Source: Candidatus Zipacnadum vermilionense (GTDB taxonomy: Bacteria > Armatimonadota > Zipacnadia > Zipacnadales > Zipacnadaceae). Taken from it: a stretch of DNA of 48,817 bases. The notes beneath the pieces were generated by a model. The model was not told where the DNA came from and ran no database searches. It saw only the letters and a program-made list of their open reading frames with translations. The DNA is taken from the NCBI GenBank assembly GCA_029821755.1, contig JALGSV010000026.1:1-48817 (forward strand), read 5' to 3'. Positions 1 through 23,800 of the stretch are shown piece by piece. The stretch's first letter is position 1, and the number at the start of each line of letters is the position of its first letter. The translations under genes and the position numbers were made by a program.

Positions 1-2682
1 GTAGCGCATATCGTTTAGACGCGGCAGAATCCCTGCCGGGTCCCACGCGGCTTTGAGGCGTTGCGTCAGGGCAGCCAGGGGAGCCGGGGCTGATTCCAGC
101 GGCTCACCGCTGCCAGGCGGGAGTCGGCGGAGAGTGCCTCCGCGGGTGTGAGCGATGGCGCGCAGCAGGTCCAGGGCCGGGCGCAGGGCATCATCGTTCA
201 GGGCGGGGAGACCGAGTCGGACGCTGCCCAGACCGGGCGAGGAGACCAGTACCGGCGCGGACAGACCTGCGGTCGCGACTGCCGCTGCCGACAGGGCCTC
301 CAGACAGCGGCTGGGCGGGCAGGACAGTTCCAGCGCGAGGCTACTCTCGGTGACCTGAGGCAAGGAGGCTACTACGGGCCAGAGGGCCTCTGCCTCCTCC
401 TCGGCAATTTCCACGGTATCGAGGCCCAGTTCCACCGCCACCGCTTGCAGGGCGCTGTCGCCGGCGGCTACCTCCGCCTCCAGGCCGTGCCAGGCGGTCA
501 GGATCAGCCACTGGCCCTCCGCCACCGCCACTCCCACCGTCGCCGCTGCCGTCGGGCCGAGTACCTCCACGGCGGCGGGGCGAGCCGACTGGGTGAGGGC
601 GCAGCGGCACAGTTCCTGCGCCTGGGTGTCGGTGTGCGCGCGCCAAGCGACGGTGCGGGCGACTGGCGGTCGGGGCGCGGTGCGGAGGATAACCTCCAGG
701 ATAGCGGCCAGGCTGCCCTGGGAGCCGACCAGCAAACGCTCCAGAGCATAGCCGGACACGTTCTTCACGCACGACACGCCGAAGCGGGCGATCTCGCCGG
801 TGGGGAGAGCCAGACGCATGCCGGTGACGCGATCAGCGAGGCGGCCGTAGCGCAGGGCGAGGGGACCGCTGAGGCCGGAGGCGATGACGCCACCGAGGGT
901 GGCCTCCTCCCCGCCCGGTGGCAGGACCGGCCACCACTGGCCCACCTCCGCGAGAGCCGCCTGTAGGTCCACTACGCGCACGCCCGCCTGGACGGTGACC
1001 GTGGCGTTGGCGGGCTCCAGGTGGAGGACGCGGTGGAGACCGAGGGTAGAGAGGGGAACCTCACCCCCTGCCCCCTCTCCTTGCAGGAGAGGGGGTGAGG
1101 AGAGGGAAGCGGCGCCCACTAAGCGCACTCCCTGCCCCTCTCGGGTCGCCAGGGCCAGCAGCTTACCCATGGCCTCGTAATCATAAGGACACAGGCGTCC
1201 TGCCTCGTCCCGCACGGCGATGGCCTCGGCGGCGCGGGTGAAGGAACCAGAGGGGAGGCTCGGGAGCTCGGAGCCCTGCGGGATTTCGTCGGGCAGCAGC
1301 TTACCGGGGTTGCTCAGGCCGGCGGGGTCGAAGGCCTCCTTGACCCGGCGCAGCAGCGCCAGTTCGTCGGGCGAGAACATCAACGGCATGTACTTGCGCT
1401 TCTCGGTGCCGACGCCGTGCTCACCGGTCATGCTCCCGCCGAGAGAAAGGGCGGCCTGGATTACCTCGCTCTGGGCGGCGAAGACCCGCTCCATCTCGTT
1501 GGGATCGCGTGGGTCGAAGATGATCTGCGGGTGTAGGTTGCCATCGCCCGCGTGTAGGATGTTGCCGATCACCAGGTGGTAGCGCTCGGAGATCTCCGTT
1601 ATGTGGGCGAGCATCTGCGGGAGCTGGTTGCGGGGGACCGACACATCGGTGGAGATCTTGCCGGGGGCGAGATTGGCGATGGCGGCGGCGGTGCCCTTGC
1701 GGCCCCGCCAGAGGCGCTCGCGCTCGGCGGGGTCCTCGGCCTGGTGGAACTCGCGGGCCTGGTAGGCGGTGCAGAGGGCGCGGATAGCGTCCATCTGCAG
1801 GGCAAGAGCGACGCGGGGGCCGTCCACGTCGATGAGCAGCACGGCGGCAGCGTCTAAGGGGTAGCCGGCCTGGAAGGTCTTCTCCACGGCCTCGATCAGG
1901 GGCCGGTCGATCATCTCCAGCGCCGCCGGCACCATCCCCCGGGCGATGATTTCGGCCACGGCGGAGGAGGCGGCGTCGAGACTGTCAAAGATGACCAAGG
2001 CGGTGCTGGTGGCCTCCGGGAGAGGCATGACGCGCACGGTGATCTCCGTAACGATGCCCAGGGTGCCCTCGCTGCCGGCGTAGAGGCCGAGCAGGTTGTA
2101 GCCGGGGAGGTCGGCGCCGGCACCTCCGACGCGGAGAATCTCGCCCTCGGGGGTGACTACCTCCGCAGCCAGCAGGTGGTTGGCGGTGACGCCGTACTTG
2201 AGGCAGTGGGCGCCGCCGGCGTTGTGGCCGAGGTTGCCGCCGATAGTGCTGACCAATTGGCTGGAGGGGTCGGGAGCGTAGAAGAACCCCAGCGGTTCCA
2301 GGCGCTTCTGCAGGTCGAGGTTGACCAGGCCCGGCTGGACCACGGCGCATTGGTCGTCGGGACTGATCGCGAGCAGGCGGTTCATGTGGGTGAGGCTAAT
2401 CAGGAGCGCGCCGGGGGAGGGGATGGGCCCGCCGGAGAGGCTGGTGCCGGCGCCGCGGGGGCTGAACGGCACCCGGTGGCGGGCGCAAGTGCGGACCAGG
2501 GCAGCGACTTCCTCGGTCGTCTCGGGGAGGGCCACGGCCGCGGCCGGCTCCTGGTCAAGTGCGCCGTCGTAGCTGTACAGACGCTGGGAGAGGGGGTCAG
2601 TGAGCAGCCGACCCGGGCCCACGGCACGGCGCAGGTCCTCGATAACGACAACCGGGAGGCGAATGGCGGCAAGGTGAGGCAT
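1..2682 (-). CDS. GlcD-GlcE fused FAD-linked oxidase (partial, runs off left edge)
   Basis: One uninterrupted frame of 894 codons from ATG at 2682 to the window edge. Residues about 1-480 match the glycolate oxidase GlcD / D-lactate dehydrogenase family: PRGAGTSLSGG FAD-binding segment near 75, GDGNLHP near 377, GEHGVGTEKR near 419, and the closing NPGKLLP. From about residue 495 a second FAD_binding_4 domain starts, GlcE-like, ending close to the window edge with WDPAGILPRLNDMRY. In most bacteria GlcD and GlcE are separate subunits that work with the iron-sulfur protein GlcF to oxidise 2-hydroxy acids such as glycolate or lactate; here they are one chain. A palindromic repeat lies in frame at residues about 526-541, in the GlcE half. 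A GlcF gene may lie just off the left edge. The fusion is seen directly; the substrate is inferred. Confidence 0.85.
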   Translation of the reverse strand, partial: MPHLAAIRLPVVVIEDLRRAVGPGRLLTDPLSQRLYSYDGALDQEPAAAVALPETTEEVAALVRTCARHRVPFSPRGAGTSLSGGPIPSPGALLISLTHMNRLLAISPDDQCAVVQPGLVNLDLQKRLEPLGFFYAPDPSSQLVSTIGGNLGHNAGGAHCLKYGVTANHLLAAEVVTPEGEILRVGGAGADLPGYNLLGLYAGSEGTLGIVTEITVRVMPLPEATSTALVIFDSLDAASSAVAEIIARGMVPAALEMIDRPLIEAVEKTFQAGYPLDAAAVLLIDVDGPRVALALQMDAIRALCTAYQAREFHQAEDPAERERLWRGRKGTAAAIANLAPGKISTDVSVPRNQLPQMLAHITEISERYHLVIGNILHAGDGNLHPQIIFDPRDPNEMERVFAAQSEVIQAALSLGGSMTGEHGVGTEKRKYMPLMFSPDELALLRRVKEAFDPAGLSNPGKLLPDEIPQGSELPSLPSGSFTRAAEAIAVRDEAGRLCPYDYEAMGKLLALATREGQGVRLVGAASLSSPPLLQGEGAGGEVPLSTLGLHRVLHLEPANATVTVQAGVRVVDLQAALAEVGQWWPVLPPGGEEATLGGVIASGLSGPLALRYGRLADRVTGMRLALPTGEIARFGVSCVKNVSGYALERLLVGSQGSLAAILEVILRTAPRPPVARTVAWRAHTDTQAQELCRCALTQSARPAAVEVLGPTAAATVGVAVAEGQWLILTAWHGLEAEVAAGDSALQAVAVELGLDTVEIAEEEAEALWPVVASLPQVTESSLALELSCPPSRCLEALSAAAVATAGLSAPVLVSSPGLGSVRLGLPALNDDALRPALDLLRAIAHTRGGTLRRLPPGSGEPLESAPAPLAALTQRLKAAWDPAGILPRLNDMRY
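1059..1106. repeat. Family A palindromic repeat, in frame inside the GlcD-GlcE fusion
   Basis: Inverted repeat with arms of the type CTCACCCCC...GGGGGTGAG around CTCTCCTTGCAGGAGAG. Read on the minus strand it encodes a PPLLQGEGAGGE-type peptide between GlcE secondary-structure elements without breaking the frame. At least ten related copies occur in this window. Confidence 0.8.
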
Positions 2683-2775
2683 GATCGAGGGTGGGCCGAA
2701 TACTTGGCGCCAGTCGTTTACAGCGGCGTTCGCCTTGGGCTCCTCCCGGCGCGGGCTTTCGGCTTGATCGGGTGT

Positions 2776-3699
2776 CTACTCCACCTGCGGCTCGGTGATG
2801 TCTCCGAGACGCTGGATGCTGTCCCCGGCGAGCTCGAGCAGGGACTCCAGGCGCTTCTGGGCGCGCCGCTGGGTGGCGGCGATGGTCAGGCTCTCGCGGA
2901 TGTCCTTCTCTATCTCCTCGAACTTGGGGACCCCCGAGGCCTGGTAGGACAGCCGCTTGACGATGATCCAGCCGTGCTGCGTCTCCTCGAAGGGCTGGCT
3001 GAGGTCGCCGTCCTTAGTCAGGGCGAAGGCGGCTTTCTGCAGGTTCTGGTCGCCCTTGCGGATGAAGCCGAAGTAGCCGGCGTTATCGCGGCCATAGGGG
3101 TCGAGGTTGTACTGCTTGGCCGCCTCCTCCCACTTGATCTTGCCCAGGACCAGGTCCTGGCGGATCTTGTCGGCTTCCTCCTTGGTGTTCACGCCGATGA
3201 AGGCAACCTCGACGGCCTCCTCGCGTGCCAGGTCCTGTTTGCTCAGCTCATAGTAGCGGATGACGTCCTCGTCGGTGACCTTGACGTCGGGCTTGACCAT
3301 CTTCTCCAGCAGCAGGCGGACGCGCAGGAAGTTGCGGTAGGAGGCGAGGGTGTACTGGTTCTGCAGGAGCCAGGAGCTGAAGCTCTGGCCGGTGGAGCGC
3401 TGGCGGCTCTCGATGTCGGCCTTGGTCTGGTTAAGGGCGGCGTCGATCTCGGCCTCACTGACGGTGAGGCCCTTCCTCTCGGCCTCCTGGTCGACGACCA
3501 GGGCGGTGATAAGCTGCTCGCGGACCTGGTATCCCCAGCGGGTCTTGAGCTCGGCGATGACCGTCGACTCCATTATCTTCTCGCCGTTGACGATAGCGAC
3601 GACCTCGTCGGCCCGGACGGGGGCCGACGGGATTAGCAGGCCGGCCGCGAGGGCCAGTAGGATCGTCCAGCGCAGGTTAGTGCGAAGGAACTGTAGCAT
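2776..3699 (-). CDS. PpiC/SurA-type peptidyl-prolyl isomerase, exported
   Basis: 307 residues. An N-terminal signal peptide or anchor (residues 1-30, hydrophobic LLALAAGLLIPSAPVRA) is followed by a SurA-N-like helical region starting VVAIVNGEKI. The parvulin (rotamase) domain lies at about 165-260, with the family pattern GYFGFIRKGD...LQKAAFAL...DLSQPFEETQHGWIIVKR. Such proteins help secreted and outer-membrane proteins fold in the periplasm. The start overlaps the end of the upstream CapA-like gene by 23 bases, so the two are probably co-transcribed and translationally coupled. The GlcD-GlcE fusion begins 93 bases downstream on the same strand. Family assignment is firm; client proteins are unknown. 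Confidence 0.88.
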   Translation of the reverse strand: MLQFLRTNLRWTILLALAAGLLIPSAPVRADEVVAIVNGEKIMESTVIAELKTRWGYQVREQLITALVVDQEAERKGLTVSEAEIDAALNQTKADIESRQRSTGQSFSSWLLQNQYTLASYRNFLRVRLLLEKMVKPDVKVTDEDVIRYYELSKQDLAREEAVEVAFIGVNTKEEADKIRQDLVLGKIKWEEAAKQYNLDPYGRDNAGYFGFIRKGDQNLQKAAFALTKDGDLSQPFEETQHGWIIVKRLSYQASGVPKFEEIEKDIRESLTIAATQRRAQKRLESLLELAGDSIQRLGDITEPQVE

Positions 3700-4807: not shown

Positions 4808-4816
4808 GTATCCGGA

Positions 4817-4911: not shown

Positions 4912-4990
4912 GGCCGGATGAACGCAGCGCAGCGAAGTGAATCCGGCCCGCTCAGGGCAGCCGACGGGCCGGATTCGCTTCGCTCATCGC
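4912..4990. repeat. Inverted repeats with GGCCGGAT arms
   Basis: The 177-base gap between the CapA-like gene and the helicase holds a strong dyad: GAATCCGGCCCG (about 4949) pairs with CGGGCCGGATTC (about 4974), preceded by a third copy of the GGCCGGAT arm near 4914. It may act as a transcription end for the helicase gene (minus). A related GGGCCGGATA...TATCCGGCCC palindrome lies near 48030-48088. Confidence 0.6.
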
Positions 4991-7830
4991 GGCCCCTCCA
5001 CCAGACTGCCGCTGCGGTCGTCGCAGAACTCCACCTCCTCCTCGCGCAAGTCCAGGCAGTAGCCGCGGCGCGGGATGTTGCGGAGGGGGACGGAGGTGTC
5101 AGGGGGGAGGGCCTCGGCCAGCTTCTTGGCCAAGCGGTGGCGGTGCCAGTTGATCTGACCGTGCTCCACCACCTCCTCCGGGCCCCAAACCTGGGCGAAG
5201 AGTTGCTGGTACGCTACGCAGCGCCCCGGTTGCGCCGCCAGGGCCGCCAGGAGGCGCCATTCGGTCGGGCGGAGGGTGATCTCCTGGTCGTGGAAGAAGA
5301 TGTGATGGGGTTGGGAGGGGTCGAGGCGGAGGAGCGGGAGGGTCTCGAGCCGGTCGAGTGGCGAAGGAGGTGCGACCTCAGTGTTGACCGGCGTCGGGGC
5401 GGCCCCGAGGGCGGGGGCTCCGGCGGCAGGCGCCTGCCCGGCCGGAGGCGGGGAGGCTTCGCGCCTCCGCCGCCGTCCGGCCGGGGTGGGACCAGGCGCC
5501 TCCCACTGGAGCTGCAAATCGTGAACCTCCGCCTCGGGCACTAGCCGGCGGCGCTCGGCGGGGATGAGAGCGGTCAGGTCGTCCTCGTTGCGCAAACCCG
5601 CCGCCAGCAAGGCCAGGGCGCGGTCGCGTCCGGCTACGCCGCGCAGGGCGTGGCCCAGGGGTAGCGCCTCCTCCGGCAGGCCCAGAGCGAGGCGCGCGGC
5701 CAGGGACTCGGCGGTCTCCACCTGCGCCGCGGTCCAGCCGCGCTCCGCGCCGATCTGCGCGGCCAGGCCCACCAGCCAGGACACCGTCTCCGCCGCTACC
5801 GCCAGGCGGCCGGCGGGGACTCGGACCGCCTCCTCCACCTCCGCCGTGGTTTCGTTGCCGGTCCAACGCAGCAGGGCCAGCACCAGTCGCGCCGCCCGGG
5901 CCTTGTCCTCCGCCGAACGCTCCCCGGTCTCACGGAGGGCCTGCAAAAGAGGGAAGTCGCCGGGCGAGGCCTGGGCCGCCAACTCGCCCAGCCAGTCGGG
6001 GGAGTGAGCGCCGCGAGGGCCCAGGGGGAAGTACAAGGCCATGGCCTCGGGGGTAAGGGCAGCGAGGAAGAGGAGAGCAAGGGGGGCCGTCCTCTGGACC
6101 CCTTCCCCTGCAAGGGGAGGGGGCAGGGGGTGAGGCTCCGAGGGCGGGGTACGTACTCCCCTCCCCACCAGTCCGTTGTCCAACCAGCGGGAGAGCCAGT
6201 AGAAGCCCTCCAGGCTCGCGCCGCTGGCGGCGGCGAGCCGTCCCAGGGGGGTCACGCGGAGACGGTCCGGCTCGCCCATTGCCAACAGCCCGTACCGCTC
6301 GGCGGAGCGCAGGGACGCCTGCAGCTCGGTAGGCAGCTCCCGCGCTTGTTGCTCGCCGCGGGTCCAGGCGGTGAGGGTGTGGCGGTAGAGTGCGACGAGG
6401 TCGTCCGCATCGCCGCCCTCGGCGCCGCAGAGCAGGGCCAACTGCTGCAGCGGGGAGAGCGCGGCCAGAGAGGGGGCGGGCGGGTCGAAGCCGGGCGCGG
6501 TGTAGCGCTCCAGCAGCGCCTCCTGCTGGTAGGTGGAGTCGGCCAGCAGAATCGCGCGGCCGTAGTCCTCCCCCAGACGGGGGCGACCGGCGCGGCCGCC
6601 CATGTTCTCGCACTCGGCGCGAGGCAGGGACACCAGTGCCGGGCGGCCGGGGCCGAGGGGCTGCTCCCAGCGCTCCCCGCAGAGGATGACGTTGCGCGCG
6701 GGGAGGTTGACCCCCAGGGCCAGGGTGGAGGTGCTGCACAGAATCATGATCTCACCCGCAGCGAAGCCCGCCTCGATGATCCGGCGCTCCTCGAACTGCA
6801 GGTCGCTGGAGTGGAAGGCGACCCCGGCGGCGACCACCTCCTGCAAGCGCTCCCGGGTGGCGGTGCGAGGAAGGGCGGCCAGGCGAGCGAGGACCGTTGG
6901 AGGGCGCGAGCTACGTCCTCCACCGTCCTCTTCCCCCTCTCCCGTGAGGGAGAGGGGGCCAGGGGGTGAGGCTCCCCTCTCCTCCGCCAGGCGCAGGGCC
7001 AGCTTGACTACGCTGGGGCGGTCGGGGAGGAAAACCAGGGTGGGCTCTCCCTGCGAGGCGAAGTGCAGCGCGAGGCGGGCGGCGGCCTCCGGCCAGGCGG
7101 CTTCCGTCAGGTCTAGCGGCCAGTGTTCCTCGCCGAGCTGCCCGGTATTGTACTCGCGGTAGCGAAAGACGCCCCCGGCCAGCACGCCCCGGCGCAGTTC
7201 CACCGGGCGCTCCCGCATCTCCAGCCCCTCGGCGTCGAGCCAGTCGGCAATCTGCCCGGAGGCGCCCATGACCGCCGAGAGGCCGACGATCTGTAACTGG
7301 GGACAGGTCGCGCGCAGGTGGGCGAGGGTAACCTCCAGGATGGGGCCGCGCTGGGGGTCGCCCAGGAGCTGTAGCTCGTCCACCACTACGCACCCCAGGG
7401 CGCGGGCGGCGGCCGGCGAGAGATTGAAGAGGTAATGGGCCTTCTCGGGCACGGCGACGGCCAGGTCGAAATCACCGCGCAGCAGACGGGGATCGTCACG
7501 GCGGCGGTCGCGGGTGCTGACGATCACGCGCAGGCCGAGCGGGCCGTACAGGCGACTGAGCAGGGCGTACTTCTCCTCCGCCAGGGCCTTGGTGGGCACA
7601 AGGAACAGAGCGCGGTGGCCGGAGGTGGCGGCCTGCAGGGCAGCCATCTCGCCGACCAGGGTCTTGCCGGCACCGGTGGGAGCGTAGAGGACAAGGCTAC
7701 CCCCACGCAGCAAATTGGTGCGCCCCACCGCCTGCGCCTGGGCCGGGAGCAACTCCGGGCCGTACTCTTGCTCCCAGATCGTCAGCAGTTCCCCCGAGAG
7801 CCCCATCGCTTCCAGTGATCCGATCTGCAT
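4984..7830 (-). CDS. Ski2/Hel308-like SF2 helicase with C-terminal OmpR-type winged helix
   Basis: 948 residues from the ATG at 7830, which has AAGGGG 8 bases upstream; an ATG at 7836 is in frame but too close to that site. Numbering below is from 7836. Walker A APTGAGKT 52-59; motif II is DELQ (153-156) where Hel308/Ski2 enzymes have DExH; SAV motif near 187; GGRAGRP motif VI 412-418. Residues about 860-930 match the OmpR/PhoB trans_reg_C DNA-binding domain (LRPTEWRLLAALAAQPGR... to NIPRRGYCLDL). The two domains are joined by a Pro/Ala-rich linker. Two copies of repeat family A are in frame (about 288-304 and 563-581). The gene is divergent from nothing conserved; a 73-residue membrane protein and a restriction-modification gene lie next to it. 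A DNA-unwinding role is inferred from the family; the target is unknown. Confidence 0.85.
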   Translation of the reverse strand: MQIGSLEAMGLSGELLTIWEQEYGPELLPAQAQAVGRTNLLRGGSLVLYAPTGAGKTLVGEMAALQAATSGHRALFLVPTKALAEEKYALLSRLYGPLGLRVIVSTRDRRRDDPRLLRGDFDLAVAVPEKAHYLFNLSPAAARALGCVVVDELQLLGDPQRGPILEVTLAHLRATCPQLQIVGLSAVMGASGQIADWLDAEGLEMRERPVELRRGVLAGGVFRYREYNTGQLGEEHWPLDLTEAAWPEAAARLALHFASQGEPTLVFLPDRPSVVKLALRLAEERGASPPGPLSLTGEGEEDGGGRSSRPPTVLARLAALPRTATRERLQEVVAAGVAFHSSDLQFEERRIIEAGFAAGEIMILCSTSTLALGVNLPARNVILCGERWEQPLGPGRPALVSLPRAECENMGGRAGRPRLGEDYGRAILLADSTYQQEALLERYTAPGFDPPAPSLAALSPLQQLALLCGAEGGDADDLVALYRHTLTAWTRGEQQARELPTELQASLRSAERYGLLAMGEPDRLRVTPLGRLAAASGASLEGFYWLSRWLDNGLVGRGVRTPPSEPHPLPPPLAGEGVQRTAPLALLFLAALTPEAMALYFPLGPRGAHSPDWLGELAAQASPGDFPLLQALRETGERSAEDKARAARLVLALLRWTGNETTAEVEEAVRVPAGRLAVAAETVSWLVGLAAQIGAERGWTAAQVETAESLAARLALGLPEEALPLGHALRGVAGRDRALALLAAGLRNEDDLTALIPAERRRLVPEAEVHDLQLQWEAPGPTPAGRRRRREASPPPAGQAPAAGAPALGAAPTPVNTEVAPPSPLDRLETLPLLRLDPSQPHHIFFHDQEITLRPTEWRLLAALAAQPGRCVAYQQLFAQVWGPEEVVEHGQINWHRHRLAKKLAEALPPDTSVPLRNIPRRGYCLDLREEEVEFCDDRSGSLVEGPR
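6092..6146. repeat. Family A palindromic repeat inside the helicase gene
   Basis: CCCCTTCCCCTGCAAGGGG followed by GGGGGTGAGGCTCC. On the minus strand it encodes EPHPLPPPLAGEGVQ in frame, after the helicase core and before the C-terminal helical region. Confidence 0.8.
6930..6982. repeat. Family A palindromic repeat inside the helicase gene
   Basis: CCCCTCTCCCGTGAGGGAG followed by GGGGGTGAGGCTCC. It encodes ASPPGPLSLTGEGE in frame between the two RecA-like domains, a region that tolerates insertions in SF2 helicases. Confidence 0.8.
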
Positions 7831-7838
7831 AGCCATCG

Positions 7839-8445: not shown

Positions 8446-11400
8446 ATGGCTCACGCCGCCCTCCGCGCCTACCGCGACGCGCTCAACGCCCAGCTTGCCA
8501 CGCGGCAGGCCGGAGAGAGAAGTCACTACTCCGCCCTGCAGGCCCTGCTCCAGGCGCTGTGCCCTCAAGTCACTGCTCAGTGTGAACCCCACGGCGAAGA
8601 GGTCGGTATCCCCGACTACAAGGTTACCCTTGGAGGCGCTCCGGTCGGCTATGCCGAGTGCAAGGACCTCGGCGTCCCCCTTGACGACGTCGTGGACACC
8701 GCCCAACTCCAGCGCTACCTCCGCTACCCCAGCCTGCTCCTCACCGACTTCCTCGAATTTCGCTGGTACGTAGACGGCGAACTGCGCGAGCAGGCCACTC
8801 TCGGCGCGCTCGGTTCCGACCGGCGGGTTCACCTGACCGCCGCCGGCGAGGAGCAGACTGAGTGCCTCCTCCGCCGCTTCCTGGAGTTCCGCGTGCAGTT
8901 CCCCGCCACCGCCGCCGACCTCGCCGCCCGCCTCGCCCGCTTCGCCCAGGAACTGCACGACGAGGCCCTCGGCAGCTTCACCGACCCCGACCCGCCCCTC
9001 GAACCCCTGCGCCAGGCCTTCGAGCAGACCCTCCTCCCCGACCTGGCCCGCGAGCAGTTCGCCGACATGTACGCCCAGACCCTGGCTTACGGGCTCTTCT
9101 CCGCCTGCTTTGAGTTGCGCCGGGAACGCGGCCCCCACCGGCGCTTCACCCGCGAGGACGCCTTCTCCCACCTCCCGCCCACCAACCCCTTCCTGCGCGA
9201 TCTCTTCTATCACATCATGGGGCCCCGGATGCCCTCCCGCGTTCGCTGGGTCGTGGATGAGATCGTGGACACCCTTGAGCGCACGGAGATAGGCGAGATC
9301 GCTGCCGATTTCGCCCACCGCGAGGGTCGCGAGGACCCCGTCGTCCACTTCTACGAGAGCTTCCTCCGCGAGTACGACCCGAAGAAGCGTCAGATACGCG
9401 GCGTCTACTACACCCCCGAGCCGGTCGTCTCCTACATCGTCCGCTCCATTGACTGGCTCCTGCGCGAGAAGTTCGACCGCCCCCTGGGCCTCGCCGACCC
9501 CGAGGTCTACATCCTCGACCCCGCCTGCGGCACCGGCACCTTCCTCTTCGAGGTCATCAAGACCATCCACCGGACGGAGGTCGCCGCCGGGCGCGAAGGC
9601 GGCTGGAACAGCTACGTCCGCGAAAACCTGCTCAAGCGCCTCTTCGGCTTCGAGTTGCTCATGGCCCCCTACACCATCGCCCACATGAAGCTCGCCATCC
9701 AGCTCCACGACCTCGGCTACGACTTCTCCGGCGACGAGCGCCTCGGCATCTACCTCACCAATACCCTCGAAGAAGCCCGCGACCTAGCCGCCCAACTGCC
9801 CGGCCTGGAGGAACTGGTAGAAGAAACCAAAGCCGCCGACCGGGTCAAACAGAAAGAGAAGATCATGGTCGTCCTGGGCAACCCCCCGTATTCGGGACAC
9901 TCGGCGAACGCCTCCTGGCGCGAGGTCACCGACCCGGTCACCCGCAAGACGCGCCGCGAGCCGACTTGGATCGGGACCCTCATAGACGACTACAAGTACG
10001 TGGATGGGCAACCGCTGCGCGAGCGCAACTCAAAGTGGCTGCAGGATGACTACGTCAAGTTCCTGCGCTTCGCCCAGTGGCGCATTGAGCAGACCGGACA
10101 TGGCATCGTCGGGATGATCACGAACCACGGCTATCTCGACAACCCCACCTTCCGGGGCATGCGCCAGTCGCTCATGCAGACCTTTGACCAGATGTGGGTG
10201 CTCGACCTCCACGGCAACTCCAAGAAAAAAGAGATCGCCCCCGACGGCAGCAAGGACGAGAACGTTTTCGACATTCAGCAGGGCGTGGCGATTGGGGTGT
10301 TTGCCAGAGGGAAGGGGCAGAGCGCGAATACCGAGGTGCGTCATGCGGAATTGTGGGGCACCAGGCAGAGCAAGAATGACTTACTGGGGGCCAGCGACGA
10401 GAGGGCGGGCGGTTGGTCATCGCTAAGTCCCCGCTCAGGCGACTACCAGTTTAAGCCAGTGGACTTCCCGCTGAAGGATGAGTACGACAAGGGATGGAGG
10501 ACAAGGGAGGCATTCACCCTCAGCGGGGTTGGCATGACCACCGCTCGGGACGAGATGGTAATCGACCTCGACGAACAGGCGCTCCTTCGCCGCGTCGCAG
10601 TCTTTCGCGATTCACCAGCATCTGACGCCGAGGTCTGCAGCGCCCTCGACATCTCCGAGAAGAAAGGCTGGGACGTTCACCGCGCACGCCTATCTCTGCG
10701 GCAGGAAGCTGATCTGTGCTCGTTCGTGGCACCGATTCTCTACCGGCCGTTCGACCGCCGCTTGATCTTCTACCACGATTCACTAGTGTGGCGGACCGTA
10801 AGACAAGTCATGCGGCATATGCAGCGCCCGAACCTGGGGCTTGTGTCAGCACGGACCAACAAGTCTTCGTGCATGGATCACTTCTTCGTGTCGGACCGGA
10901 TGATGGAGACAAAATGCGGCGAGTCGACCGTGCAATCATACCTTTTTCCCCTTTACCTCTACCCCTCCGATGATGCCAAGAAGACCGGACGCGACGAGTT
11001 CATGGACTCTCCCTGGCCGCCCGGACAGGAGGGTCGCCGCCCCAACCTCAGCCCTGCCTTCGTCGCCGACCTGGAGCAGCGCCTCGGCCTCTCCTTCATC
11101 CCCGACGGCCAGGGCGACCTCAGCCAGCCCGCCGCGTCCCCCTCCGCTTCTCTCCCCCCTCTCCCGCAGGGAGAGGGGGGCCAGGGGGGTGAGGCTCCCC
11201 AGGGAACCTTCGGCCCCGAGGACGTCTTCTACTACGCCTACGCCGTCTTCCACTCCCCCACCTACCGGGAGCGCTATGCCGAGTTCCTCAAGATCGACTT
11301 CCCGCGATTGCCCCTCACCTCCGACCGGGAGCTCTTCGCCGCTCTCGTGGGCCTGGGGAAGCGCCTCGTGGACCTGCACCTACTGCGCGCCGACGGGGAG

Positions 11401-11769
11401 GTCGGTTCCGCCCCCGGCTTCCCGATCACGGGCGACAACGTCGTCGAGAGAATGAGGTATCTGGAGGCCGTACCGGGGGAGCCACCGCCCCAGCCACCAC
11501 CGGGCGGCGCAAGCGCCGCCCCTACGGGCGCGAGCGGCGGGCGGGTGTATATCAACAAGACCCAGTACTTCGAGGGCGTCGAGCCGGAGGTCTGGAACTT
11601 CCACATCGGCGGGTATCAAGTCTGCCAGAAGTGGCTCAAAGACCGCAAGCGCCGCGCCCTGTCCTGGGAGGATATCTGCCACTACCAGGACATCGTCCTG
11701 GCCCTGCGCGAAACCCGCGAGATCATGCGGCGGATTGACGAGGCGATCCCGGCCTGGCCGCTGGCCTAG
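8446..11769 (+). CDS. Single-chain restriction-modification enzyme (nuclease + N6-adenine methylase, type IIG/ISP-like)
   Basis: 1107 residues. An N-terminal PD-(D/E)xK nuclease signature is visible: PD at 56-57 and ExK at 71-73 (GYAECKD). Then comes a helical coupler, a YYTPEPVVSYIVRSID segment typical of type ISP enzymes, methylase motif I DPACGTGTF (about 357-365) and motif IV NPPYS (about 479-483). The C-terminal half is the target-recognition and ISP C-terminal region (KTQYFEGVEPEVWNFHIGGY). No helicase domain is present, unlike LlaGI-type ISP enzymes, so type IIG-like action is more likely. Bases about 10300-10980 have less biased codon use than the flanks, as expected for an exchanged recognition domain. 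Repeat family A (about 903-920) and a REP-like element (about 1015-1034) are in frame in the C-terminal part. No Shine-Dalgarno is seen before the ATG. Confidence 0.87.
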   Translation: MAHAALRAYRDALNAQLATRQAGERSHYSALQALLQALCPQVTAQCEPHGEEVGIPDYKVTLGGAPVGYAECKDLGVPLDDVVDTAQLQRYLRYPSLLLTDFLEFRWYVDGELREQATLGALGSDRRVHLTAAGEEQTECLLRRFLEFRVQFPATAADLAARLARFAQELHDEALGSFTDPDPPLEPLRQAFEQTLLPDLAREQFADMYAQTLAYGLFSACFELRRERGPHRRFTREDAFSHLPPTNPFLRDLFYHIMGPRMPSRVRWVVDEIVDTLERTEIGEIAADFAHREGREDPVVHFYESFLREYDPKKRQIRGVYYTPEPVVSYIVRSIDWLLREKFDRPLGLADPEVYILDPACGTGTFLFEVIKTIHRTEVAAGREGGWNSYVRENLLKRLFGFELLMAPYTIAHMKLAIQLHDLGYDFSGDERLGIYLTNTLEEARDLAAQLPGLEELVEETKAADRVKQKEKIMVVLGNPPYSGHSANASWREVTDPVTRKTRREPTWIGTLIDDYKYVDGQPLRERNSKWLQDDYVKFLRFAQWRIEQTGHGIVGMITNHGYLDNPTFRGMRQSLMQTFDQMWVLDLHGNSKKKEIAPDGSKDENVFDIQQGVAIGVFARGKGQSANTEVRHAELWGTRQSKNDLLGASDERAGGWSSLSPRSGDYQFKPVDFPLKDEYDKGWRTREAFTLSGVGMTTARDEMVIDLDEQALLRRVAVFRDSPASDAEVCSALDISEKKGWDVHRARLSLRQEADLCSFVAPILYRPFDRRLIFYHDSLVWRTVRQVMRHMQRPNLGLVSARTNKSSCMDHFFVSDRMMETKCGESTVQSYLFPLYLYPSDDAKKTGRDEFMDSPWPPGQEGRRPNLSPAFVADLEQRLGLSFIPDGQGDLSQPAASPSASLPPLPQGEGGQGGEAPQGTFGPEDVFYYAYAVFHSPTYRERYAEFLKIDFPRLPLTSDRELFAALVGLGKRLVDLHLLRADGEVGSAPGFPITGDNVVERMRYLEAVPGEPPPQPPPGGASAAPTGASGGRVYINKTQYFEGVEPEVWNFHIGGYQVCQKWLKDRKRRALSWEDICHYQDIVLALRETREIMRRIDEAIPAWPLA
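11147..11206. repeat. Family A palindromic repeat inside the restriction-modification gene
   Basis: CCCCCTCTCCCGCAGGGAG and GGGGGGTGAGGCTCC arms. It encodes LPPLPQGEGGQGGEAPQ in frame within the C-terminal specificity region. Confidence 0.8.
11501..11546. repeat. REP-like element inside the restriction-modification gene
   Basis: GGGCGGCGCAAGCGCCGCCC followed by CTACGGG, ending in the same CTAC tip as the intergenic GTAG repeats. It encodes a GGASAAPTGASGG peptide in frame, next to a Pro-rich stretch. Confidence 0.6.
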
Positions 11770-13375: not shown

Positions 13376-13431
13376 GTGAACCCTCCGGACTGCTAAGGTC
13401 CGACGCCCACGGCGCCTGGATTGCGGCTTGC

Positions 13432-13475
13432 GCGGGCGGATGTTGCGGCTCGGAAGCCGCAATATCCGCCCCTAC
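13432..13475 (-). repeat. REP-like palindrome, inverted mate ending in CTAC
   Basis: GCGGGCGGATGTTGCGGCT pairs with AGCCGCAATATCCGCCC, then CTAC. Together with the copy at 13319-13375 it forms a head-to-tail inverted pair (BIME-like) filling the gap between the RepA-like and RDD genes. Confidence 0.75.
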
Positions 13476-13506
13476 GGAGGCCAGCTGCGACTTCTCATGC
13501 ACGCTC

Positions 13507-14253: not shown

Positions 14254-14322
14254 CTTGAGGGGGCGGGTCTTCCCGTCCCCAGGGAGCACGGGCTATCTCG
14301 CCCGCGCCACGCGAATACACTT

Positions 14323-16877: not shown

Positions 16878-16922
16878 CGTGGGTGCAGAATACGGCTGCG
16901 GCTTGGGGTGCGGCGCGCCGTC

Positions 16923-17042: not shown

Positions 17043-19436
17043 ATGCATCAATTCGCCGGTATTGCTGGCTATCCACGGGGTCACACCGAGCCCCGACATG
17101 CCTTTCGGGAGGAGTTGGCGACGCCGCTGCATCAGCGGCTGCTGCGGAGGGAAGGGGCGGCTCCGCCTCTGGTGGGGGTGGAGGTTACGGAGGAATGGGG
17201 AGTCGCGCTGCCGGAGGGGGCGGGGGAGCAGATTCGCGCCGCCGCCGCTGACTTTGGTAAGTTCATGACAGTTTGCATGGGAGTGGCGGGGGAGCCTCAC
17301 CCCCTGCCCCCTCCCCTGGCAGGGGAGGGGGTTCCGAGCACCGGCGAGACGCCGGTGCCACCGGGAATCAGATTGGTCCTCGCCCCCGGGGAGTTGCCGC
17401 CCGAGGCGTACCGGCTGGGGGTGAGCGCGGCAGGCGTTACCCTCACCGCCTCCGACGAGAGCGGGTTGCAGTATGGGCTGTATGAGCTGGAGGATCGGAT
17501 GGTGGACGCCGGGGGGCCGTGGCTAGAGCTAGGCTCCGTGGAGCGGGCGCCGTTCCTGGAGGCGCGGATTCTGCGGTCGTTCTTCTCGCCGTTCTACGTG
17601 AACGAGCTGCTGGACGACGTGGACTACTACCCGGAGGAATATCTCAACCGGCTGGCCCACCATCGGGTCAACGGCGTGTGGATACATGTGGTGCTGCATG
17701 AGGCCGTGCCCTCGACGATCTTCCCGGAGTTTGGGGAGAAGTCGGAGCAGATGCTGGCGAAGCTGCGTAACGTGGTGGCGAAGGCGGCGCGGTATGGGAT
17801 CAAGGTGTACCTGTACTTCAACGAGCCGCGCGGGCTCAAGCAGAGCGACCCCTTCTGGGAGGCGCATCCGGAGGTCAAGGGGGCCCGTTCGGACGGGTGG
17901 TTCTCGCAGTCCTTCGCCATGTGCACCAGCACGCCGGAGACGCTGGAGTGGCTGACGGAGGCCTCGCAGCGGCTGTTTGCGGAGGCGCCGGGCCTGGGCG
18001 GGGCCTTCCTGATTACCGCCTCGGAGCACCACACCAACTGCTTCTCGCACGTGGGACGGAGCACGGGGGACCTGAGCGATACGCACTTCGCCGAAAAGGC
18101 GGGATGCCCGCGCTGCTTCCAGCGGACGCCGGAGGCGGTGGTGGACGAGGTGGTGACGGCGATCGAGCGGGGGATGCACGCGGCGGCGCCGGAGGCGAAG
18201 GTGATCGTGTGGGACTGGTCGTGGTCGATGCTGTGGGGGGAGGACACCACCGACCGGATCATCGCCGGACTGCCGCAAGACTGCATCCTGATGTGCGACT
18301 ATGAGCGTGGGGATGAGAAGACCATCCTAGGCAAGACCATCTGGATGGACGAGTACGCGCTGTCGCTGGTGGGACCCTCGCGGCGCTTCCGGCGGTGCGA
18401 GGCGGCGGCGAAGTTGCGGGGCCTGCCGATGTACGTGAAGCTGCAGTTCCTGGCGACCCATGAGCTGGCGGACGTGCCGTGGACGCCCATGCCGAGCATC
18501 GTGTACGACAAGTTCGCCGGGATGGAGCGGCACGGGGTGAAGGGGATGCTGGGGTGCTGGATCTTCGGGAACTACCCGGGGATGCTCAGCGATTTCGCCG
18601 GGCAAGTGTACTTCGGGGCGGGGCCGGAGCAGCGGCGAGGGCAGCTGGAGTGGCTGGCACGGCGGTACTTTGGCCCGGAGGCGGTCCCGGAGGTGCTGCG
18701 AGCGTGGGATCGGTTCGCGCGGGCGTGGGACTACTACCCCTTCCACGTCCCGCTGCTGTATAACGGGCCGCATGTGGAGGGGCCGGCCTTCCCGTGGTTC
18801 CTGGAGCCAATTCACAAGCCCTTCCCGCCCAACTACATGGCGAACACGGAGCCGGGCGACAACATGCTCGGGCAGATCCTGGACGGGGAAGTGCTGTGGG
18901 TCGACGCCTGCCTGACCGAGATCCTGGAGCACTGGGCGGAGGGCGTGCGGGACATGGAGGCGGCGCTGGGGAAGATCGCGGCGCCTACCCTCGACCAGCG
19001 CCGGGAGTACGGATTGGTGCGCTGCTGCTACCACCAGATGGCGACGTTGCGCCATACCGCGCGCTTCTACGTGGAGCGGGAGGCGTTGCTGCGCAGCGGG
19101 AAGATCGAGGAGCGCCGGGCCATCCTGCGGCGGCTGCAGGGGTACATCCGGGAAGAGATCGTCAACGCGGAGGCGTGCTTGCCCTTCGTGGAGGCCGACT
19201 CGCGGCTGGGTTGGCATTCGGAGGTCTTTGACTACCAGTTCACGCCGGAGGCCATCGGGGAGCGGGTGGCGAAGCTGCGAGAGATGGCCGAGGAGACGAT
19301 CCCGGCCTGGCTGGAGACCGACGGGGGGCTGATCCCGCCGCAGCCGTATGAGGAGGAGATGAGCGAGGCGGCGTGGCGAGTGATCGAGGAGAAGCTGGGG
19401 GAGGTGGATTGGGTGGAGGGGATCTACCCAGATTAG
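17043..19436 (+). CDS. GH20-like glycoside hydrolase
   Basis: 797 residues. The N-terminal region contains a Glyco_hydro_20b-type domain (DESGLQYGLYELEDRM, residues about 138-153), normally found before the hexosaminidase barrel. It is followed by a barrel-like region (FFSPFYVNELLDDVDYYPEE, HRVNGVWIHVVLHE, YGIKVYLYFNEPRG). There is a conserved CPRCF element and a late helical domain. The classical GH20 Asp-Glu catalytic pair is not obvious, so the reaction is not assigned; it may act on N-acetylhexosamine-containing glycans. A repeat of family A and a TGETPVPP repeat are inserted in frame at about residues 83-107, before the GH20b domain. The gene starts a plus-strand run with an M24 peptidase-like gene and two deacetylases. 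There is no signal peptide, so action in the cytoplasm is likely. Confidence 0.65.
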   Translation: MHQFAGIAGYPRGHTEPRHAFREELATPLHQRLLRREGAAPPLVGVEVTEEWGVALPEGAGEQIRAAAADFGKFMTVCMGVAGEPHPLPPPLAGEGVPSTGETPVPPGIRLVLAPGELPPEAYRLGVSAAGVTLTASDESGLQYGLYELEDRMVDAGGPWLELGSVERAPFLEARILRSFFSPFYVNELLDDVDYYPEEYLNRLAHHRVNGVWIHVVLHEAVPSTIFPEFGEKSEQMLAKLRNVVAKAARYGIKVYLYFNEPRGLKQSDPFWEAHPEVKGARSDGWFSQSFAMCTSTPETLEWLTEASQRLFAEAPGLGGAFLITASEHHTNCFSHVGRSTGDLSDTHFAEKAGCPRCFQRTPEAVVDEVVTAIERGMHAAAPEAKVIVWDWSWSMLWGEDTTDRIIAGLPQDCILMCDYERGDEKTILGKTIWMDEYALSLVGPSRRFRRCEAAAKLRGLPMYVKLQFLATHELADVPWTPMPSIVYDKFAGMERHGVKGMLGCWIFGNYPGMLSDFAGQVYFGAGPEQRRGQLEWLARRYFGPEAVPEVLRAWDRFARAWDYYPFHVPLLYNGPHVEGPAFPWFLEPIHKPFPPNYMANTEPGDNMLGQILDGEVLWVDACLTEILEHWAEGVRDMEAALGKIAAPTLDQRREYGLVRCCYHQMATLRHTARFYVEREALLRSGKIEERRAILRRLQGYIREEIVNAEACLPFVEADSRLGWHSEVFDYQFTPEAIGERVAKLREMAEETIPAWLETDGGLIPPQPYEEEMSEAAWRVIEEKLGEVDWVEGIYPD
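17286..17361. repeat. Family A repeat plus GACGCCGGTG repeat inside the GH20-like gene
   Basis: CCTCACCCCCTGCCCCCTCC and the mirrored arm CAGGGGAGGGGG, immediately followed by CACCGGCGAGACGCCGGTG. The second part recurs at 19651-19675. Both are translated in frame (EPHPLPPPLAGEGVPS, then TGETPVPP). Confidence 0.75.
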
Positions 19437-19454
19437 GGTCGGGCGCCGCCTCTC

Positions 19455-19500
19455 GTAGGGGCGGATATCGCGGTGTCCGCACCGCGACATCCGCCCGCGC
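19455..19500 (+). repeat. REP-like palindrome with GTAG tip
   Basis: GTAGGGGCGGATATCGCGGT pairs with ACCGCGACATCCGCCC, just after the stop of the GH20-like gene. It forms an inverted pair with 19594-19637. Confidence 0.75.
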
Positions 19501-19593
19501 CCGGCGAGGACAGAACGCCCGAGAAGCCCAAACGAAGGAGAAGACGAGGCGCAGCCGCGGGCGGCAGCGGTGAGCCCGTTGGCTGCCGCAGCC

Positions 19594-19637
19594 GCGGGCG
19601 GATGTTTCGCCGGGGACGGCGAAATATCCGCCCCTAC
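19594..19637 (-). repeat. REP-like palindrome, inverted mate ending in CTAC
   Basis: GCGGGCGGATGTTTCGCCG pairs with CGGCGAAATATCCGCCC, then CTAC. It lies upstream of the M24 gene. The copy of the GACGCCGGTG repeat follows at 19651-19675. Confidence 0.75.
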
Positions 19638-19708
19638 GAGAAAGGCCCCGACACCGCCGAGACGCCGGTGCCACCATGAGTCAACAACCCACAAGGAAGG
19701 AACTTACC

Positions 19709-20869: not shown

Positions 20870-20889
20870 GGGAGCTTTCCGGTCGGAAT

Positions 20890-20935
20890 GTAGGGGCGAA
20901 TGTTGGGGCGTCTGCGCCCCAACATCCGCCCCTAC
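20890..20935. repeat. REP-like full palindrome, GTAG to CTAC
   Basis: GTAGGGGCGAATGTTGGGGC pairs with GCCCCAACATCCGCCCCTAC, so both feet carry the tip. It fills the 81-base gap between the M24-like and polysaccharide deacetylase genes. Confidence 0.75.
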
Positions 20936-20950
20936 GAGAGGCGATGACTC

Positions 20951-21883
20951 ATGACCAAACCCATCACCGTCGTCCTCGGCCTCGATGTCGAGACCGATGT
21001 GGGGAGCTGGTACAACACCTACGAGGGCATGGTGCACGGGACGCCCCTGCTGCTGGAGATGTTTGCGGAGAAGGGCGTGACCGGGACCTTCTTCGTGACC
21101 GGCGCGGGGGCGCGGGAGCATCCCGAGGTGGTGCGAGAAATCGCCGCGGCCGGGCAGGAGGTGGGGTGCCACTCGCTGTATCATGAGACGGTCGGGGAGC
21201 CGCTCTTCCCCATCCCCGGCGTCACGCCGCTACTGCCCGAGGAGGTGGAGCACCGCCTGGAGGTGGCCACCGACCTGGTCGCCGAGGCACTTCGGTCGGG
21301 ACCCCCTCTCCTGCAAGGAGAGGGGGCAGGGGGTGAGGCTCCGCGGCCGGTGTCGTTCCGTTGCCCGCGGCTGTTCGGCGGGACGCAGGTGGTGCGGGCG
21401 CTGGAGAACCTGGGATATCTCGCCGACGCCAGCTACCCGCTGTATTTCTACCAGGAGCGGCTGGTGCCGTACCATCCCGCAGCGGAGGACTGGACGCAGG
21501 AGGGGGACCTGCGGCTGCTGGAGATCCCCAACTTCGCCGACCTGACCGTCAACAGCCAGGACCCCTACGGGCGCGACCGGGACCAATGGCCGCTGTTCCG
21601 CACCGAGAGCGCGGAGGCGCTGCTCGGGCATGTGGACAACTACGTGGGGTTCGTGCGGGAGCAGGGCTTGCCGGTGGTGCTGTGTTTCTACTTCCACCCG
21701 TGGGAGTTTCTGCCCATGCCGGAGAGCATGTTCCTGGGCGAGGGGACGGTGGTGCCGGAAGAATTCCTCATCAAGAACTGCGGGCCGTATGCGCTGGAGC
21801 AGTTCGGGCTCATGCTGGACGGCCTGAAAGACAGAGGTGCGGAATTCACCAGTTGTGCCAAGCTGTCGGAGACGTGGGAATAG
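20951..21883 (+). CDS. Polysaccharide deacetylase (NodB/CE4-like)
   Basis: 310 residues. NodB-homology features: LGLDVETD (residues 9-16) in place of the usual TFDDG, GTFFVTG, the metal-binding GCHSLYHE (H-S-x-x-H) and FRCPRLFGG. The variant first motif is typical of intracellular CE4 relatives that act on small amides or sugars. A family A repeat is inserted in frame between the zinc-binding HSLYH strand and the FRCPR motif (GPPLLQGEGAGGEAPRP, about residues 117-133), a surface loop in this fold. The next gene, a PIG-L deacetylase, starts 4 bases after the stop, so the two are almost certainly co-translated. There is no signal peptide. Predicted role: removal of N- or O-acetyl groups; the substrate is unknown. 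Confidence 0.85.
   Translation: MTKPITVVLGLDVETDVGSWYNTYEGMVHGTPLLLEMFAEKGVTGTFFVTGAGAREHPEVVREIAAAGQEVGCHSLYHETVGEPLFPIPGVTPLLPEEVEHRLEVATDLVAEALRSGPPLLQGEGAGGEAPRPVSFRCPRLFGGTQVVRALENLGYLADASYPLYFYQERLVPYHPAAEDWTQEGDLRLLEIPNFADLTVNSQDPYGRDRDQWPLFRTESAEALLGHVDNYVGFVREQGLPVVLCFYFHPWEFLPMPESMFLGEGTVVPEEFLIKNCGPYALEQFGLMLDGLKDRGAEFTSCAKLSETWE
21298..21346. repeat. Family A palindromic repeat inside the polysaccharide deacetylase gene
   Basis: CCCCCTCTCCTGCAAGGAG followed by GGGGGCAGGGGGTGAGGCTC. It is translated in frame as PPLLQGEGAGGEA. Confidence 0.82.
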
Positions 21884-21886
21884 GCC

Positions 21887-22603
21887 ATGCGAGTACTGGC
21901 GGTTGGTGCACATCCAGATGATGTGGAGACTTACTGCGGCGGGACGCTGGTGCGTTATGCCCAGCGCGGGGATGACGTGTGGGTGCTGGTATGCACCGAC
22001 GGCGGCGGCGGGCACCAGGTGATCCCCACGGAGGAGTTGATTCCCATCCGGGAGCGGGAGGCCCAGGCGGCAGCGGTGGCGCTGGGGGCGCAGTTGGTGA
22101 TGCTGGGCGAGCCGGATGGAGGGCTGTTCGCGGAGGCCGCCACGCGGAAGAAGATGCGGGAGGTCTTCGCCGAGGTGCGGCCGGAGGTGGTGCTAGCGCA
22201 TCCGCCGCAGGACTACCACCCGGACCACCGGGCGGCCTCGCGGCTGGCAGAGGAGGCGTGCGGGCTGGCGGGGGGGAGCCTCACCCCCTACCTCCTCTCC
22301 TTGCAGGAGGGGGGGGAGAAGCGTGGGCCGGCCTTGTTGTACATGGACACGCAGGAGGGCCTGGGGTTTGTGCCGGACCTGTACGTGGACATCAGCGGGG
22401 AGGCAGTGGAGAGGAAGCTGGCGGCGCTGAGTTGTCACCGGAGCCAGGTGGACTGGCTGGCGCACCACGACGGGATTGACCTCTTGGAGTGGGTGCGCGG
22501 GGCGGCGCGGACGCGCGGGATTCAGTGTGGGCTGGAGTACGCGGAGACGTTTCGGATGGCGCCGGGCTGGGGAAGGGTGAAGACTTGGGCGATGCTGCCC
22601 TAG
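21887..22603 (+). CDS. PIG-L/LmbE-family deacetylase
   Basis: 238 residues. It starts with the family zinc motif AHPDDVE (residues 8-14, MRVLAVGAHPDDVETYCGG split around it) and has the second motif HPPQDYHPDHRAA (about residues 105-117). The family removes acetyl groups from N-acetylglucosaminyl compounds (GlcNAc-PI, GlcNAc-inositol, bacillithiol and related). A degenerate family A repeat is in frame (about 130-145, GSLTPYLLSLQEGGEKRG), so this chain also tolerated an insertion. It starts 4 bases after the polysaccharide deacetylase. Together with the GH20-like and M24-like genes it suggests a small pathway for N-acetylated sugar conjugates. Confidence 0.87.
   Translation: MRVLAVGAHPDDVETYCGGTLVRYAQRGDDVWVLVCTDGGGGHQVIPTEELIPIREREAQAAAVALGAQLVMLGEPDGGLFAEAATRKKMREVFAEVRPEVVLAHPPQDYHPDHRAASRLAEEACGLAGGSLTPYLLSLQEGGEKRGPALLYMDTQEGLGFVPDLYVDISGEAVERKLAALSCHRSQVDWLAHHDGIDLLEWVRGAARTRGIQCGLEYAETFRMAPGWGRVKTWAMLP
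22272..22322. repeat. Family A repeat (diverged) inside the PIG-L gene
   Basis: GGGAGCCTCACCCCCTACCT with partial mirror TTGCAGGAGGGGGG. It is less symmetrical than the other copies, which suggests an older insertion; the frame is kept. Confidence 0.65.
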
Positions 22604-22611
22604 CCGACCCG

Positions 22612-22682
22612 AGGGACACCATGTATGGCGTCCCTTGACGGCAAGTCGGCCCGGACCGGACCTCAGCGGTCTCGGTCCGGGC
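22612..22682. terminator. Hairpins between the PIG-L and DUF4870 genes
   Basis: Two dyads lie between converging genes: GGGACACC...GGCGTCCC (22612-22633) and a strong one, GCCCGGACCG (22649) pairing with CGGTCCGGGC (22673-22682), with an inner GACC/GGTC pair. There is no long T run, so termination is inferred from position. Confidence 0.55.
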
Positions 22683-22712
22683 AGTTAGTGTTGGTCCCCT
22701 CGGAGTTCTCCC

Positions 22713-23114
22713 CTACTTGATCAGCCGCAGGGCGAACGGATAGCGGTAGTCCTCACCTTTGTTGACTGCCATCGCTGCCATGATGCAGTAGATCAAGTCC
22801 ACGATGCTCACCGCGATGATCACGAAGATGCCGATGAGCACCATGGTGAGGATGCCGCCGACAATCATGCCGATCAGCACCGTGATCTGGAAGTTGAGGG
22901 CCTCCTGCGCCTGCCTCTTGGCGAAGGGCTTCTCGTTGGCAGTGAGGTACAGGATCAGGGGCCCCAGCCAACCGGTGACGAAACCGAGGATGTGCGCCAG
23001 CATCGCGAGGGACTTCTCGTCGCTAACGTTGGCGGGCTGGATCTCTGGAGCGGGGCTGGGCGGCGGAGTCTCCGGGGTGGCGGCAGGAGGCGGGACTTGC
23101 GGGTTATCGGCCAT
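22713..23114 (-). CDS. DUF4870 (Tic20-like) membrane protein
   Basis: 133 residues, ATG 23114 with GGGAGGG at proper spacing. A Pro-rich N-terminus (about 30 residues) precedes the DUF4870 signature: SDEKSLAMLAHILGFV, GPLILYLTANEK, FAKRQAQEALNFQITV, and two or three hydrophobic segments up to the end. Proteins of this family are about 100-130 residues and often carry the same Pro-rich head. Distant similarity to the chloroplast Tic20 translocon subunit is described for the family, but the bacterial role is unknown. It is a single gene converging on the PIG-L gene. Confidence 0.85.
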   Translation of the reverse strand: MADNPQVPPPAATPETPPPSPAPEIQPANVSDEKSLAMLAHILGFVTGWLGPLILYLTANEKPFAKRQAQEALNFQITVLIGMIVGGILTMVLIGIFVIIAVSIVDLIYCIMAAMAVNKGEDYRYPFALRLIK

Positions 23115-23206
23115 GGTCGTTACCCTCCCTGGGTGTGATAGGACACGTCTACCACGTACGTATTCGACACCGGGCGCCAGAGTCCTTCATTGCCGCGGAC
23201 GCCATT

Positions 23207-23737
23207 CTATTCTGAATTCGCAGTGGCCCGGTCCGGAAGGTCCGCGACACGCGGAGGCTGCTTCCAACCGAACCTCATCTCACACCCCTCCGCCCCGGCG
23301 CAGGCCATGTGGGGCATGGAGAACTCGCACTGGTCGCCGAACTCGTGGCACCAGACGCGGCCCTCGGTAGGGCAGATGGTCTGGGCGATGCGGGCGGCGA
23401 GGTCCTGGCGGTCGGACTTGCGCAAGAGCTCCAGCCAGGGGCAGGCGTGGATGGTGAAGGTCACCGCGTCAACGCCGGCCGTGATCGTGAAGCGGTGGCC
23501 GTCGGCGGTGAGCTTGAGGGTGAAGCACTCGGCGAGGTCCTCGGGCGCGTTGCCGCCGACCTCGAGGAGCCGGCGGGCTTGGCGGGCCTGGATCTTGGCG
23601 AGGATCTCCCAGACCCGGCGGTCCAGTTCGAGCGCTTCCTCGAAGTCGTGGGCCTCCTCGACCTTCATGAACCACAGCCCGTCGACGACGTGGTAGGCGC
23701 GGCGGAGGTACTCGACAACGATGTCGGGATCGGGCAC
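23207..23737 (-). CDS. Cys-containing DUF6125-like protein of unknown function
   Basis: 176 residues from GTG 23737. This start has a near-perfect AGGAGGTGA 10 bases upstream; that site is part of a family A repeat. A GTG at 23770 is in frame but inside the repeat. Visible features: YHVVDGLWFMKVEE and ALELDRRVWEILAKIQARQAR in the N-terminal half, then cysteines at HACPWLELLRKS, IAQTICPTEGRVWCHEF, CEFSMPHMACAGAEGCEM. This layout resembles the DUF6125 family found next to metabolic genes in anaerobes and archaea, possibly binding a metal or a ligand. The family call is from memory of its pattern and is moderate. No operon partner is clear; the phosphomannomutase gene lies upstream on the same strand. 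Confidence 0.6.
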   Translation of the reverse strand: MPDPDIVVEYLRRAYHVVDGLWFMKVEEAHDFEEALELDRRVWEILAKIQARQARRLLEVGGNAPEDLAECFTLKLTADGHRFTITAGVDAVTFTIHACPWLELLRKSDRQDLAARIAQTICPTEGRVWCHEFGDQCEFSMPHMACAGAEGCEMRFGWKQPPRVADLPDRATANSE

Positions 23738-23800
23738 GGGAGCCTCACCTCCTGCTCTCTCCCTGCGCACGTTCCGTGCGCTTTGCAGGGGAGGGGGGAA
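23735..23800. repeat. Family A repeat with a GC-rich insert, upstream of the DUF6125-like gene
   Basis: GGGAGCCTCACCTCCTGCTC and GCAGGGGAGGGGGG arms separated by a small inner palindrome GCGCACGTTCCGTGCGC. The minus-strand GGAGGTGAGGCTCCC part provides the ribosome binding site of the gene that follows. Confidence 0.7.

Follow-up and report, generated by a model that had tools for sequence, protein, structure and literature searches.

How does one palindromic sequence come to lie, in frame, inside several unrelated proteins of a single bacterium, and what could carry it there? The question is raised by contig JALGSV010000026.1 (assembly GCA_029821755.1) of Candidatus Zipacnadum vermilionense, phylum Armatimonadota (Zipacnadia/WS1), whose 48,817 nucleotides were analysed whole and are termed the window. 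A palindromic element of 41–45 bp occurs there in frame in seven copies within six genes, all in open frames, which bears out an initial annotation that had placed one such element in at least six proteins. On balance we favour the view that this triplex-type repeat is a small non-autonomous element, likely spread by a nuclease of the DUF559 (YcjD-like) family, and that its copies inside genes survive where they are tolerated.

The window has 10 occurrences of the sequence CTCACCCCC, where 1.3 are expected; none of 100 shuffled sequences reached 10. Eight aligned copies give the consensus GGAGCCTCACCCCC-TG-CCCCCTCTCC-TTGCA-GGAGAGGGGG, of which GGAGCCTCACCCCC is the tag. Five of its six frames are open; the sixth has a TGA in the tag and is used by no in-gene copy of the window. 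The in-gene copies use several frames and both orientations, as first described. A covariance model, R1, was built from eight window copies only; it scores the eight main copies at 53–69 bits, and the genome-wide search that had been proposed (4.39 Mb in 115 contigs) lists at least 150 copies. In another genome (L191, G017:C211) five copies form a tandem array with a 49-bp period.

Alignment with orthologues separates the inserted peptides from the surrounding protein. The helicase gene (4984–7836, minus strand) carries two copies, and the alignment comprises 20 orthologues from the same genus, family and order, most of which cover each site. The copy at 6933–6975 (minus; R1 59.7 bits) corresponds to an insertion of 21 residues and that at 6099–6139 (minus; 66.9 bits) to one of 22–24 residues, each missing from every orthologue that covers the site. 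A copy at 11155–11198 (minus; 59.3 bits) in the type ISP restriction-modification gene (8446–11769, plus) makes an insertion of about 26 residues that most orthologues lack. The polysaccharide deacetylase gene (20951–21883, plus; copy at 21302–21342, minus, 69.3 bits) has exactly 15 residues, or 45 bp, more than 17 orthologues, one of which is 80% identical and clean at the DNA level. Judged by these alignments, four of the seven sites are clean insertions.

Insertion is seen in part at two further sites, where the copy fills a loop: in the GlcD-GlcE fusion gene (1–2682, minus; copy at 1055–1095, plus, 66.4 bits) the net gain over orthologues is about 6 residues, and in the PIG-L gene (21887–22603, plus; copy at 22275–22315, plus, 64.3 bits) it is 4–9 residues, so that native residues must have been lost or replaced. 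The GH20-like gene (17043–19436, plus) has its copy at 17291–17331 (plus; 66.4 bits), missing from three homologues; because a genome of the same genus, G001, shares it in degenerate form, this insertion is probably older than one species. The insertion points appear to fall in loops, as far as variable-length positions in the alignments can tell. The small net gain in GlcD-GlcE and PIG-L is what could be said for the peptides being native low-complexity sequence, an idea to which we give practically no credence: it is refuted at four sites, where orthologues of the helicase, the restriction-modification enzyme and the deacetylase cleanly lack the peptide that the initial annotation had asked to be sought there, and the genome-wide copy number speaks against it as well.

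Other repeats enter some of the same proteins. At the restriction-modification site, genome G008 has the whole reading frame of a REP-associated tyrosine transposase (RAYT; REP, repetitive extragenic palindrome) inserted in frame, and other orthologues have REP-like peptides, for which reason we regard the site as a tolerant hotspot; the joint open frame in G008 (L337, G008:C159) has 1385 residues. In the GH20-like gene (17291–17345) a second palindrome, GCACCGGCGAGACGCCGGTGCC, directly follows the element and is read as STGETPVPP, a REP-like peptide seen also near RAYT insertions. A different repeat (SRKSKVESG...KVERG) has added 28 residues, in frame, to the GH20 homologue of G001 (L448) near residue 527; ESKVESG is found also in Ca. 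Z. vermilionense, on contig C71 near 127750. At the end of the window (48230–48733) a 126-bp tandem repeat of about four units, 80% alike, lies in coding sequence.

Seen from the window alone, the element would seem to prefer genes. Genome-wide it avoids them. In a copy-rich sample of 847 kb of the same genome, with genes called by a home-made hexamer gene caller, 27 (28%) of 97 non-redundant copies lie well inside genes, 49 are intergenic and 21 overlap gene ends; inner coding sequence makes up 73% of positions (p 2e-20), and we conclude that coding insertion is selected against. The window is an outlier in its share of coding copies, with seven of nine inside genes compared with 20 of 88 in the remainder of the sample. 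Of the additional window copies first reported, two stand: one at 46121–46162 (minus; 53.4 bits), abutting the stop codon at the 3′ end of a fucose isomerase gene, and a long-loop copy with a second hairpin in its loop at 23739–23797 (plus; 30.7 bits), between genes or at an N-terminus. That at 25358–25396 (plus; 17.7 bits, E 0.0023) is weak, decayed and doubtful, and the one claimed at 33041 is unsupported (10 bits, E 0.31).

What kind of repeat is it? Read on the opposite strand, the element is CCCCCTCTCC-TGCAA-GGAGAGGGGG-CA-GGGGGTGAGG, that is, a pyrimidine arm followed by two of purines, the third arm mirroring the second. The triplex test applied calls for a third purine arm in mirror order with the triads G.GC, A.AT and T.AT (purine motif); in 39 copies of 41 nt, 94.1% of triads conform, against 68% with the third arm shuffled, and the stem has 95% Watson-Crick pairing. 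A triplex scanner recovers all but one of the eight main window copies. By its sequence, then, the element is a G/C-rich class II intrastrand-triplex repeat of the BoxC/PIT/TM kind, whose third purine arm could fold back antiparallel on the hairpin. Repeats of this kind are known from Escherichia coli and over 260 genomes; they have been known for decades, to our knowledge without a mobility gene. The literal E. coli TMECO/BoxC consensus, CCCTCNCCC N3-6 GGGNGAGGG N3 GGGNGAGGG, gave no matches, even with the second loop set at 1–6, because the arms here are 10 nt and the second loop 2 nt; the core shared with E. coli BoxC/TM matches three copies. We therefore file the element under the wider PIT/TM kind.

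Which protein might move such a repeat? The five Y1_Tnp matches of the genome, most of them with palindromes of their own, made RAYTs the first candidates to be tested. On one reading the repeat is simply an ordinary REP that a RAYT (Y1 HuH) transposase mobilises, as with GTAG REPs, and its tie to DUF559 is secondary; in its favour are these five matches, the one R1 copy found some 230 bp away from one of them, and the inverted doublets, which look like the doublets named REPINs. The palindromes at most of these loci belong to other families, unrelated to the element, and among 50 RAYT loci from relatives there is not one at which R1 reaches 20 bits; we rejected the partnership, and the idea is strongly disfavoured, its probability being low. 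The tag is not that of GTAG REPs either: GGAG appears only at the outer edge of GGAGCCTCACCCCC. By spelling it fits GGGGWSAS, a motif of tyrosine transposases flanked by terminal inverted repeats; the matching repeats at RAYT loci have a different tag (GGGGACAC...), and this candidate was dropped. The window holds other palindromic families too. One, GTAGGGGCGG...CCGCCC (13422–13476, 19451–19500, 19584–19641 and 20882–20943), resembles the repeat beside the RAYT gene L003 of the same genome and is probably a GTAG REP; another, GCGTGGCGCGGGCTTTCTAGCCCGC (14280–14313 and 45032–45065), is like the repeats around the RAYT gene L004.

DUF559 loci gave a different result. Among 50 such loci of the phylum, 30 have R1 matches of at least 20 bits, compared with the absence at RAYT loci given above (Fisher 3e-12), and in three independent cases inverted R1 pairs, 400–500 bp apart, enclose the DUF559 gene. 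The linkage extends beyond the phylum. We collected 80 named DUF559 loci from Armatimonadota, Chloroflexota, Bacteroidota, Proteobacteria, Patescibacteria and others, and scanned them with the triplex scanner, which is independent of R1. The triplex motif lies within 500 bp of the DUF559 gene at 55 of these, and at 0 of 30 RAYT and 0 of 28 helicase loci; within these DUF559 loci its density is 1.48 per kb near the gene and 0.0635 per kb more than 1 kb away. Exact inverted repeats of at least 14 bp flank 27 of 74 DUF559 genes, as against 1 of 320 control windows. Methylotenera, Azospirillum and Anaerolineae repeats have the same build with lineage-specific arms. The genome of Ca. Z. vermilionense has a DUF559 (PF04480) gene of its own (C71:238503–238814; 95.9 bits, curated cut-off 20.6); matches above this cut-off were found in 29 of 61 genomes, and over all 61 the element and DUF559 tend to co-occur (Fisher 0.002). 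Triplex repeats thus flank DUF559 (YcjD) genes across phyla, a point that is new: no tie between the two was found in part of the DUF559 literature nor in a 2025 survey of REPs.

The DUF559 protein is predicted to be a nuclease with a Vsr-type PD-(D/E)XK fold. Its profile matches 3hrl (2.7e-27) and 3r3p (5.5e-4), the latter being the homing endonuclease I-Bth0305I; the same two are the best fold matches of its AlphaFold model (predicted local distance difference test score, pLDDT, 82.6), with E. coli Vsr (1vsr) lower at E 0.029. An earlier study had already assigned YcjD to the PD-(D/E)XK superfamily, close to Vsr (PMC1189080).

The DUF559 gene of E. coli, ycjD, has sapF and fabI as its two neighbours and triplex repeats on its 3′ side; the K-12 TM copy at 1 351 204–1 351 239, listed in PMC4666352, adjoins ycjD. 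In 60 E. coli genomes, evenly sampled from 5,373 matching records, the number of motif places has a median of 12 (8–19) in the 37 with ycjD and of 3 (1–10) in the 23 without, a correlation that is not independent of ancestry, since ycjD follows phylogroup. Without ycjD the gap between sapF and fabI can hold an efflux operon, one that has been published (PMC12817139).

We can now say how the element may spread. DUF559 is the best candidate for its mobiliser: the nuclease would act on single-stranded DNA at the replication fork, and inverted copies lie on either side of its own gene, as REPs do around RAYT genes. Most copies would land between genes; those within genes would persist only where a frame is open and the site tolerates 15–24 extra residues, leaving peptides of the PLPxGEGxGGEA type that may be near-neutral. 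More broadly, and with somewhat less than even confidence, we suggest that DUF559/YcjD and triplex palindromes form a separate class of mobile DNA, in which the nuclease, which is no transposase of any known kind, mobilises its cognate palindrome in trans, surrounds its own gene with inverted copies, and has seeded the BoxC/PIT/TM repeats and in-frame peptides of very many bacteria.

Several points weigh against spread by DUF559. We know of no strand-joining activity of a Vsr-fold nuclease alone. No transposition was observed, and we found no two strains of which one cleanly lacks a single element at a site that it occupies in the other, the Azospirillum plasmids giving no such case; they show just doublet/singlet changes and an apparent inversion. 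The majority of copies in the genome of Ca. Z. vermilionense do not adjoin DUF559, and 11 of 33 element-bearing relatives, which are draft genomes, have no detected DUF559. Some E. coli without ycjD keep about 10 copies, and the dependence on phylogroup belongs here too. The orientation of copies follows local GC skew at 87 of 97 (gene strand adds nothing), in a statistic whose neighbouring copies are non-independent; on other contigs the bias is weak (16/24, p 0.21) and in E. coli K-12 it is absent. We report it for this reason without leaning on it, and a replication-linked step is for the same reason no more than possible.

Might no dedicated enzyme be involved? Slippage, gene conversion or template switching could multiply the repeats, with DUF559 genes being homing-type genes that landed at them. 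I-Bth0305I, a relative in fold, is a homing endonuclease, and the triplex motif has been described as a source of instability with no mobility gene (PMC4666352). Changes between doublet and singlet also fit slippage. They are seen in Azospirillum (L398–L403), whose repeats are doublets with their tags outward and differ between close strains near 27.3 kb and near 34.5 kb: at one site several strains have a doublet where Sp7 has a singlet, and another site looks inverted in Az39. DUF559 genes, however, sit between complete and mostly inverted copies, with no single copy split, and the flanking palindromes vary by DUF559 lineage, as expected of cognate pairs. Moreover, in the complete chromosome L296 the tag searched for occurs at two sites only, both flanking DUF559 (the chromosome was unusable as a replicate for strand bias). 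We think this explanation unlikely. Still less do we expect that DUF559 polices the repeat, cutting or repairing it while some unknown host process spreads it. Vsr-like repair enzymes are among the relatives of DUF559 (PMC12907096), but inverted copies close to the gene are the arrangement of a mobile unit, and E. coli genomes with ycjD hold more copies, not fewer.

Spread by a DUF559 nuclease would give a candidate route to E. coli BoxC, a self-folding repeat long described with no known means of spreading; as the partner gene is present in K-12 as ycjD, a laboratory strain allows the origin of the repeat to be tested directly. The coding copies show that enzymes of an uncultured phylum can gain peptides from such repeats, and they explain a recurrent PLPxGEG..GGEA peptide by which annotation and protein comparison can be misled.

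The element can be set beside four known systems. I-Bth0305I and the other EDxHD homing endonucleases, and Vsr, are fold and sequence relatives of DUF559, and differ from it in that they go with introns, inteins or mismatch repair, not with dispersed palindromes. The Rickettsia palindromic elements, grouped here with the CGTC REPs (PMC3733652), were the parallel drawn in the initial annotation; it holds for the manner of working, in frame in many unrelated proteins, and fails for kinship, since the aligned consensus has no CGTC at its ends, the sequence and the phylum are other ones, and the present element is of class II triplex type and tied to DUF559. GTAG REPs with their RAYTs (PMC3733652, PMC2817692) resemble it in being short hairpins whose tag is unpaired, in forming doublets, in having some copies within genes and in flanking a gene, whereas GTAG is lacking here and the partner is of the PD-(D/E)XK type, not a Y1 HuH transposase. 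Closest are the BoxC/PIT/TM repeats (PMC4666352, within which the PIT elements of Hoyne and Maher are cited). The E. coli motif is reported to be always intergenic and unassociated with mobile elements (Holder et al. 2015, PMC4666352), unlike the in-frame copies described here, and differs in arm and loop length; the two have in common the order of the arms, the core CCCTCTCC / GGAGAGGG / GGGTGAGG, the triplex rule, a high copy number and, in other genomes, inverted doublets.

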